The position numbers were made by a program, and so were the translations under genes. A stretch of DNA of 64,000 nucleotides from an uncultured Marinicella sp. Lineage in GTDB: Bacteria > Pseudomonadota > Gammaproteobacteria > Xanthomonadales > Marinicellaceae. The first letter of the stretch is position 1. Each line of letters opens with the position of its first letter. The notes beneath the pieces are model-generated. The model did not search any database. It saw only the letters and a list, made by a program, of their open reading frames with translations, and was not told the DNA's origin. The stretch is taken from assembly GCA_947502595.1 (NCBI GenBank), contig CANNAM010000001.1, positions 310,001 to 374,000 of the forward strand. The letters run 5' to 3'. Shown in pieces: positions 11,334 through 12,960 of the stretch.

Positions 11334-12122
11334 TCAGCTGTTGTAGATGGAATTCAATTGAGTGGATAACCAGGCTGAAAGCTTGAGGTTACCAGCGATG
11401 ACTTGGCGGGTGCTGCTGAAATTTCTTTTGGCACTGTAATCCATGCATTGTCCACCAGCTTCTTCAACCAATAAAATGCCGCCCAGCATTTCTGAATTTG
11501 GCATGTCGTTTTGCCAGTATGCATTGAGGCTACCACCGGCTACCATAGCTAAATCCAATGCTGGACTGCCCATTATACGGACATCGGCAGTGGTTTTATT
11601 GATGGTTCTTAAGGCCAGGGCTTGTGCTGCTGATTTGCTTTTATCACCTGAGTGATTGGTTGCAACCAATGACTCTTCGGGTTCGTTGTGGTTGCTGATA
11701 CGCAAACGTCGTTGGTTTAAAAATGCACCACCGCCTTTGCTGGCAGTGAACTCATCGTCAGTGATGGGGTTGTAAATCAAGGCTTCCTTGGTTTTACCGT
11801 TTTCAATCAAGATGATACTGATGGCACAGTGTGGAATGGCATGTAAAAAATTGGTCACGCCACTCAGTGGATTAATCAACCACACGCGTTCGGGGTTGGT
11901 GTATTCAGTTAAGGTTTGCTCATCACTTTGAATTTCATCTTCCGGATAAGCCTTTTTTAAAGTGTAGAAGATGTCGTTTAAGCTGACATTTATGGCTTGA
12001 TCAACAAAGCCATTGTTGAGTTTTTTATTGACTGACAGCAGTTCATTTTTAAACATCAACTGTTCTATTGAATTAGCGGCTTTCAGCGCTGCTTTTTTGG
12101 CTATATTTTGTTCAGGTGACAT
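11334..12122 (-). CDS. suhB: SuhB-like inositol monophosphatase-family protein, metal site degenerate
   Basis: This 262-aa protein aligns end to end, by eye, with E. coli SuhB, and suhB lies next to trmJ as in many gammaproteobacteria. The family phosphatase site D-P-L-D-G-T reads N84-P-L-S87-G-V here. The late P-W-D motif reads P208-N-S210, and the E-E pair near 67 reads D67-E68. Two of the four aspartate/glutamate metal ligands are clearly lost (D84N, D87S), a third (the late Asp) is Ser, and the fourth is Asp for Glu. Mg-dependent phosphatase activity is therefore unlikely. In E. coli, SuhB also acts in the Nus antitermination complex for rRNA operons, independent of catalysis. I infer that this copy keeps only that role. 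Divergent from trmJ across 73 bp. Confidence 0.82.
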   Translation of the reverse strand: MSPEQNIAKKAALKAANSIEQLMFKNELLSVNKKLNNGFVDQAINVSLNDIFYTLKKAYPEDEIQSDEQTLTEYTNPERVWLINPLSGVTNFLHAIPHCAISIILIENGKTKEALIYNPITDDEFTASKGGGAFLNQRRLRISNHNEPEESLVATNHSGDKSKSAAQALALRTINKTTADVRIMGSPALDLAMVAGGSLNAYWQNDMPNSEMLGGILLVEEAGGQCMDYSAKRNFSSTRQVIAGNLKLSAWLSTQLNSIYNS

Positions 12123-12152
12123 GAGCTAATTAGGATCCGTTGGTCTGTGCTG

Positions 12153-12181
12153 TTGATGGAAAAGTTCGAACCGCGTATGAT
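12153..12181 (+). promoter_or_regulatory. Candidate sigma-70 promoter of trmJ
   Basis: TTGATG (12153-12158), 17-bp spacer, TATGAT (12176-12181). Transcription would start near 12188, leaving only about 8 nt before the TTG start of trmJ. The short leader makes either the promoter or the start assignment doubtful. Confidence 0.45.
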
Positions 12182-12195
12182 ACCAAATCTTTAAC

Positions 12196-12960
12196 TTGAA
12201 TGACACTGTTGTGGATAGATTAGAAAACATTCGCTTTGCGCTGATAAATACCTCTCATGCCGGTAACATTGGTGCGTCTGCTCGAGCGATGAAAGTCATG
12301 GGCTTAAAACAATTGCATTTAATTGGTCCGACTGATTACCCCAGTGCTGAAGCCACTGCGCGTGCTTCAGGTGCAGATGATGTGCTATTTAATGCCAACG
12401 TACATGACAGCTTAGATCAGGCCATAGCACCCTGTACTTTGGTGTTTGGCAGCAGTGCGCGCAATCGCGGTATGGATATTCCGGTAATTGATTTGGCCGA
12501 GGCAGTTAAATTAATGCTTTCGACTGCAGCCAACCAACAAGTGGCGTTGTTATTTGGTAAAGAGCGCTATGGCATGACCAATGAAGAAATGCAGCGCTGC
12601 CATTATTTGGTTAAGTTTCCAGCAAATCCAGAGTATTCATCATTGAACTTGGCTGCAGCGGTACAGGTTGCAGCTTATGAAATTCGCAAGCAATGTTTAG
12701 AACTGCAAGCACCACCAGGAATAATTGAAGGTGGTTCTGCAATAACAGCAGAATTGCCCTTTGCGGATGCAGCTAAAATGCAAAGTTTTTACAACCACCT
12801 GTTTGCTGTGATGCATGAGGTGGACTTCATGCAAACTCAAAATGTGGACTCACTGACCGAGAAACTGAGGATGATGTTCAATCGCATGCGCATTGAGAAA
12901 CATGAGATGGATATTTTGCGCGGTTTTTTGAGTGCTGTGCGTAAGAACATCAAAAAATGA
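12196..12960 (+). CDS. trmJ: tRNA (cytidine/uridine-2'-O-)-methyltransferase TrmJ
   Basis: A 254-aa SPOUT-family enzyme that 2'-O-methylates position 32 of several tRNAs in the cytosol using SAM. Motif 1, with N-I-G-A-S-A-R-A-M-K, is near residue 24. The knotted C-terminal part shows L-F-G-K-E-R-Y-G-M-T-N (about 117-127) and S-S-L-N-L-A-A-A-V-Q (about 148-157). There is no in-frame ATG: an in-frame stop lies at 12178-12180 and the first possible starts are TTG 12196 and GTG 12211, so a non-ATG start is forced. No Shine-Dalgarno sequence is obvious. Neighbour of suhB, as in E. coli. Confidence 0.93.
   Translation: MNDTVVDRLENIRFALINTSHAGNIGASARAMKVMGLKQLHLIGPTDYPSAEATARASGADDVLFNANVHDSLDQAIAPCTLVFGSSARNRGMDIPVIDLAEAVKLMLSTAANQQVALLFGKERYGMTNEEMQRCHYLVKFPANPEYSSLNLAAAVQVAAYEIRKQCLELQAPPGIIEGGSAITAELPFADAAKMQSFYNHLFAVMHEVDFMQTQNVDSLTEKLRMMFNRMRIEKHEMDILRGFLSAVRKNIKK

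Follow-up and report, generated by a model that had tools for sequence, protein, structure and literature searches.

A SuhB ortholog kept without its two-metal phosphatase site across Marinicella, alongside an altered rRNA boxA

In the window, the whole stretch of 64,000 nucleotides of Marinicella DNA analyzed here, we identified a suhB ortholog whose product has lost the metal site of the inositol monophosphatase (IMPase) family, a loss found throughout the genus. The reading that we favor, at a probability of about 65%, is that Marinicella SuhB is a catalysis-free structural Nus factor kept in a re-tuned antitermination system. SuhB combines inositol monophosphatase activity with a Nus-factor role, and the question of which of the two is selected has rested on work such as that on E. 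coli mutants. Marinicella, in which SuhB stays under strong constraint without the active site, is a natural experiment on this question. We infer both the Nus role and the re-tuning, and antitermination would be the retained role by orthology, by analogy with the E. coli work, and from the partners that the genus retains. In this scheme, the orthologous SuhB would have lost its two-metal phosphatase site in the common ancestor of Marinicella, and the protein would have been kept at full length, most likely selected as a dimeric hub bringing NusA, S10 (NusE), and NusG together on the RNA polymerase transcribing rRNA. Since catalysis would not be needed for the hub job, the metal ligands would have been free to drift, with replacements that vary from species to species.

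The gene (11334..12122, minus strand) encodes 262 aa from an ATG start. Its product matches PF00459 (E 1e-39 in a profile search), the nearest solved structures in a phmmer search against PDB sequences are those of 'Nus factor SuhB' (9j90/8wdq, 1.6e-42), and the best NCBIfam match is PRK10757, at 138.8 bits far below its cut-off of 332 bits. The gene is divergent from trmJ (12196..12960, plus strand, from the ORF call and neighborhood comparison), the same arrangement as in E. coli, with an intergenic region at 12123..12195. A divergent trmJ adjoins suhB at 16/17 genus loci and at 12/12 loci of the sister genera g3 and g4, the 17th genus locus lying on a short contig on which no trmJ was seen. 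The trmJ neighborhood is kept, as the preliminary description had stated. Family-typical SuhB residues are also retained in the genus, e.g., K34, P97, H98, G130, G132, R141, G224, and G225. An AlphaFold model of the window protein reached a mean pLDDT of 45, too low for use, from an alignment of only seven rows (the window protein and six loci). Within 120 nt upstream of suhB, no match to boxA, consensus or variant, was found with at most one mismatch.

In an IQ-TREE phylogeny of 79 SuhB-like proteins, in which HisN and CysQ were absent and the bootstrap was not fully settled, the genus SuhB proteins form a single clade (100/100), sister to the SuhB of g3 and g4 (97/85). By these comparisons, the window gene is the suhB ortholog and not a spare paralog. 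A search of the same genome for a second intact IMPase gene, as had been proposed, returned three PF00459 matches, namely suhB itself and two genes in tandem (G000:C19), one HisN-like and one CysQ, and no second SuhB; a paralog with an intact SuhB elsewhere was thus rejected for this genome. NCBIfam places one of the tandem genes nearest to HisN, under the cut-off, and the other over the CysQ cut-off. Both share the PF00459 family with the window protein and differ from it in that their translations retain the D-P-(I/L)-D-G-T motif and a downstream Asp. The tandem (L001) directly follows an ORF that looks, on inspection by eye alone, like a mannose-1-phosphate guanylyltransferase gene.

The residues at issue were placed by alignment to E. 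coli SuhB, with coordinates by arithmetic, all on the minus strand. The window protein has D67 for E67 (11922..11924), N84 for D84 (11871..11873), S87 for D87 (11862..11864), V89 for T89 (11856..11858), I183 for R184 (11574..11576), and S210-E211 for W211-D212 (11490..11495). We take E67, D84, D87, and D212 to be the IMPase metal ligands, and at these four positions the window protein carries D, N, S, and E. The preliminary description had pointed to N84, S87, and D67 in place of conserved metal-site residues, as the alignment bears out. It had also assigned S210 to the aspartate of the W-D motif; this substitution is real, but S210 stands for the Trp, and the neighboring Asp has become Glu (E211). 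No intact metal site emerged from the alignment with E. coli SuhB and relatives, on which the loss stands.

The loss extends to the whole genus. The search covered 18 Marinicella genomes, the window's own included, and gave 17 full-length suhB orthologs of 262–264 aa and one C-terminal piece at a contig end (L068, G015), which has F-A where W-D is expected. When SuhB was aligned across these related genomes, the metal site was absent in 17/17 full-length orthologs. Residue 84 is N in 10, Q in 2, E in 2, V in 2, and I in 1, so that none has Asp there; residue 87 is S in 6, A in 4, N in 3, D in 3, and I in 1; residue 211 is S in 10, I in 4, and F in 3; residue 212 is E in 9, T in 4, K in 2, H in 1, and D in 1. 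Position 67 is acidic in 16/17, and Arg is found at position 184 in 0/17, as against 39/40 comparison sequences. All of E67, D84, D87, T89, W211, and D212 are retained in 40/40 of these comparison sequences, which comprise 12 from the sister genera and 28 others (order relatives, the divergent same-family G018, and E. coli). Set aside before this count were L066 (intact apart from Ser in place of T89), L067 (motif intact), and the fragment L068. As the substitutes differ across the genus and the loss is found in all 17, neither chance nor assembly error accounts for it.

A survey of the class, based on a sample that was not random, gave a similar contrast. Of 143 genomes searched, 138 had a match, and 110 loci from 109 genomes were read, among which 108 keep E-D-D-G-T-D and 99 have Arg at R184. 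The 29 matching genomes outside this reading include G000 and G033, which were read separately, and those with the weakest matches (G082, G106, and G201). Of the two exceptions, L226 is missing its N-terminus and retains D84 through D212, whereas L220 is another degenerate protein. The latter (G118:C5) is a SuhB-like protein of another family, with the N-terminus MKPILNIALRAARKAG, EAINGQ for DPLDGT, and IE for WD; its genome also carries an intact relative (L221), and no rRNA was found in that genome, so boxA could not be read there.

From these alignments, it is nearly certain that catalysis was lost in Marinicella SuhB, and the protein would be expected to be inactive in the test tube. A rearranged metal site, built from D67, E211, and E68, could in principle support weak or different hydrolysis, in keeping with the Glu that replaces Asp at 212 in 9/17 orthologs and with the acidic residue at 67 in 16/17. 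We consider this very improbable: D84 is lost in 17/17, D87 in 14/17, and D212 in 16/17 (with T, K, or H in seven), and the substitutes differ between species, which is unlike the behavior of an active site.

Although its site is gone, the gene is maintained. Nei-Gojobori dN/dS for SuhB was 0.019–0.085 in nine genus pairs and 0.033–0.056 in the intact g3 (five pairs with finite dS among six run), values that are rough because most pairs are close to synonymous saturation; pN/pS agreed, at 0.04–0.23 in the genus and 0.05–0.19 in g3. With 17/17 full-length loci open and dN/dS like that of intact relatives, we rejected the possibility of a pseudogene, and by these measures Marinicella SuhB is a maintained non-enzyme under strong purifying selection. 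The stem of the genus SuhB clade measures 1.26 changes per site and the sister stem 0.19. Compared with order relatives, SuhB of the genus shows a mean identity of 0.33 and that of the sister genera 0.51, whereas the corresponding genus and sister values are 0.43 and 0.43 for TrmJ, 0.60 and 0.62 for NusA, 0.40 and 0.37 for NusB, and 0.83 and 0.82 for S10. The acceleration is thus specific to SuhB, since the other four proteins show no such gap. Among genus members, SuhB also varies more than TrmJ, with mean identities of 0.60 and 0.67. Catalysis was probably lost a single time, early in the ancestry shared by all Marinicella, during a phase of rapid change after which the protein settled under ordinary constraint.

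A long stem followed by strong constraint could also mark adaptation to a new task outside the Nus system, e.g., ligand sensing or RNA binding by the emptied pocket. There are 54 SuhB positions that are invariant within the genus, and some of these invariant residues, e.g., Q21, N26, D62, N156, and Q205 in E. coli SuhB numbering, are absent from the 40 comparison sequences, in keeping with such a recruitment. However, the position beside trmJ and the family-typical residues are kept, and the boxA and NusB changes described below, found in the same genus, point toward the Nus system. We regard a recruitment of this kind as quite unlikely.

Of the partners of SuhB in its Nus role, the genus encodes NusA, NusB, and S10. 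NusA with both AR1 and AR2 was found in 16/16 full-length genus sequences (of the remaining two of the 18 genomes, one gave two pieces of NusA and one gave none), and NusB and S10 were each found in 17/18 genomes. S10 shows no change at 74 conserved columns. NusB is altered at four positions, given in E. coli numbering for 17 genus sequences (L158–L174) and 14 others: W20 (13/14 others) is M, I, or L in 17/17, Q21 (11/14 others) is H in 17/17, E109 (11/14 others) is L or I in 17/17, and D128 (13/14 others, the lone exception being the His of g3) is T in 13 and K in 4. The identification of the changed Asp as D118, which we take to be the residue of a known E. coli NusB allele, was rejected, as numbering against E. 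coli NusB places this residue at D128 and the conserved sites that changed do not include D118. At a 90% cut, changed conserved columns number 2/27 in NusB (W20 and D128), 12/214 in NusA, 1/52 in TrmJ, and 11/70 in SuhB; on this count, the share in NusB is not clearly above that in NusA. NusA dN/dS in the genus was 0.010–0.050, tighter than that of SuhB, and NusB dN/dS was 0.022–0.047, similar to that of SuhB, with five pairs each.

E. coli SuhB is described as a hub linking NusA, S10, and NusG (PMC10250234) and as binding NusA AR2 and the RNA signal, with K251 and L254 needed for the NusA-AR2 contact (PMC6614801). In Marinicella, K251 is replaced by A or T and L254 by S, T, or A; these two positions are equally variable in relatives with an intact SuhB site. 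A Gly of NusA AR2 (position 441, in the first helix-hairpin-helix) that the other genera in the comparison conserve gives way to L or R in 16 genus sequences (L071–L086). The replacement of this Gly, the failure to keep K251 and L254, the lesser constraint on SuhB than on NusA, and its greater diversity than that of TrmJ all count against the favored reading, as do the NusB share of changed columns and the His at NusB 128 in g3.

The RNA signal has changed as well. The gammaproteobacterial boxA consensus is given as GYTCTTTAANA (PMC5725501). E. coli rrnH has GCTCTTTAACA before boxC, and the leaders of order relatives have GCTCTTTGAAA (G033), GGTCTTTGACA (G034), GATCTTTGACA (G052 and G060), GATCTTTGAAA (G053), ATTCTTTAACA (G050), GCTCTTTAAAA (G047), and GCTCTTTAAGA (G048). 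Among the 18 genus genomes, leaders were readable in ten (L110, L104, L106, L107, L108, L109, L111, L112, L113, and L140), and 10/10 have GYAAWTTAAMA in the place of boxA, 27–29 nt before boxC, TGTGGGCACTTG, which is kept in the genus leaders with a mismatch in one of them. The consensus boxA was found in none of the genus leaders and spacers that were read. Position 3 is A in 10/10 genus leaders and T in 13/13 leaders of relatives, and position 4 is A in every genus leader read.

The 16S-23S spacers, read at L110, L104, and L106–L109, contain GTAAMTTAACA in five of six and GTACTTTAACA in the sixth, with A at position 3 in every one. The element sits 217–228 nt before the 23S in 5/6 and is followed by TTTGGAA in the five displayed. 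The spacers of relatives have GTTCTTT-type elements in G033, G034, G052, and G060 and GTTGTTTGACA in G037. As the variant pattern was derived from the leaders, the spacers are the fairer test, although C at position 5 was added after the spacers had been viewed. In dinucleotide shuffles, 0.007–0.019 chance matches were expected per leader and 0.003–0.009 per spacer. The boxA 11-mer is 90% identical among genus leaders, a figure inflated because these 11 nt were chosen by the pattern itself, as against 43% for the 11 nt upstream. Most of it lies outside the leader-trailer helix, with 0/11 nt paired in four of seven genus operons and a maximum of 6, and a place at the edge of this helix means that pairing hardly explains its conservation.

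The change in boxA and the loss of the metal site are not tightly coupled, since boxA also varies where SuhB is intact. The core is altered at position 4 or 5 in the order relatives G037 (GTTGTTTGAGA; L105/L114) and G056 (GCTATTTAACA; L154, with A at position 4) and in the leaders of three g3 genomes (GTTCATTAAAA; L103, L144, and L149), all with an intact SuhB.

An altered boxA may also stand before rpsJ. Upstream of this gene, the 11-mer GCAAATTAACA, an exact match to the altered boxA, was found at -10 in 17/17 genus loci located (L335 and 16 others), and GAGGCAAATTAACATG precedes rpsJ in the four genus loci printed; no altered boxA with at most one mismatch was found upstream of rpsJ in 13/13 non-genus loci. 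The sister genus already has GAGGCAA before rpsJ, and the genus stretch is also the ribosome-binding spacer, so the match is only suggestive. It may reflect NusE autoregulation or chance.

On the favored reading, the antitermination apparatus that we examined is present but would have been re-tuned. GYAAWUUAAMA takes the place of GYUCUUUAANA as the boxA of the 16S leader and, in 5/6 if C is permitted at position 5, of the 16S-23S spacer, and NusB, its reader, differs at the four positions given above. These two sets of changes suggest a complex that persists while its RNA specificity is altered, the genus NusB presumably recognizing the new boxA. A fuller version, which we hold only tentatively and at somewhat less than even odds, is a genus-wide re-specification of the rRNA nut system, in which the usually invariant core of boxA would have changed in leader and spacer (perhaps also before rpsJ/nusE), NusB would have changed to read it, SuhB would be structural only, and S10 would be unchanged at its conserved sites.

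The same changes could instead mean that the pathway is decaying, given their effects in E. coli: U-141G, which is boxA position 3 by our count from the rrnB 16S start, inactivates boxA and is reported to prevent complex formation (PMC10250234), C4A is an inactivating change (PMC5725501), and both positions are altered in the genus leaders. Antitermination through boxA and SuhB would then be relaxing in bacteria with few rRNA operons, with SuhB kept for residual contacts and eventually lost. Eight of the ten genus genomes with a readable leader yielded one leader, and G002 and G011 yielded two each, all counts from draft assemblies; the variation at position 4 or 5 in relatives and the fast evolution of SuhB along the genus stem fit this scenario too. 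We nevertheless judge it unlikely. SuhB dN/dS is on a par with the low values of the intact sister genus, none of the 17 full-length suhB loci has a broken ORF, and the altered boxA is itself conserved across a deep genus, in the leader and mostly in the spacer. This conservation of the new boxA, together with the low dN/dS of both SuhB and NusB, favors a persisting complex over a fading dependence on boxA.

With respect to known systems, Marinicella SuhB resembles E. coli SuhB in its orthologous place beside trmJ, its family, its near-equal length, and the presence of NusA (with AR2), NusB, and S10. It differs in the absence of the two-metal site, the loss of R184, and an identity of only about 34%, and any antitermination role that it has would involve an altered boxA and a NusB with changes at W20, Q21, E109, and D128. 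IMPase-defective SuhB mutants of E. coli are reported to be free of the cold-sensitive growth defect, so that the growth role needs no IMPase activity (PMC4807359). The Marinicella protein is like these mutants in its predicted lack of phosphatase activity and unlike them in that the loss is natural and fixed genus-wide, with a drifting site. The preliminary description had presented the window gene as a case of a lineage that keeps the protein and drops the enzyme. The loss of the site, the purifying selection, and the orthology agree with that view; on the other hand, Marinicella is not a clean removal of catalysis alone, as boxA and NusB have changed too and the SuhB stem is fast.

A divergent boxA had been suspected before: PMC5725501 mentions five gammaproteobacterial genera in which no boxA was identified upstream of rRNA and suggests a different consensus there. 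Marinicella differs from what that source describes for these genera in giving an altered consensus, GYAAWTTAAMA, in leader and spacer, with a changed NusB and SuhB. Our searches for literature on SuhB as a 'pseudoenzyme', or on Marinicella with 'inositol monophosphatase', returned no paper. If boxA and NusB did change to match each other, this would be an unusual case of a highly conserved RNA signal being re-tuned in concert with its reader, and the Marinicella NusB and boxA are a testable candidate for an orthogonal NusB/boxA pair.

Two minor observations concern the rRNA leaders. A GCTCTGTAACA-like match downstream of boxC occurs in a few leaders only, is not conserved, and was set aside. 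In G013 (C1:283288-284185; L107, L324), the first 92 nt matched of the 16S occur a second time, 126 nt ahead of the full 16S, either as a real duplication or as an assembly artifact.
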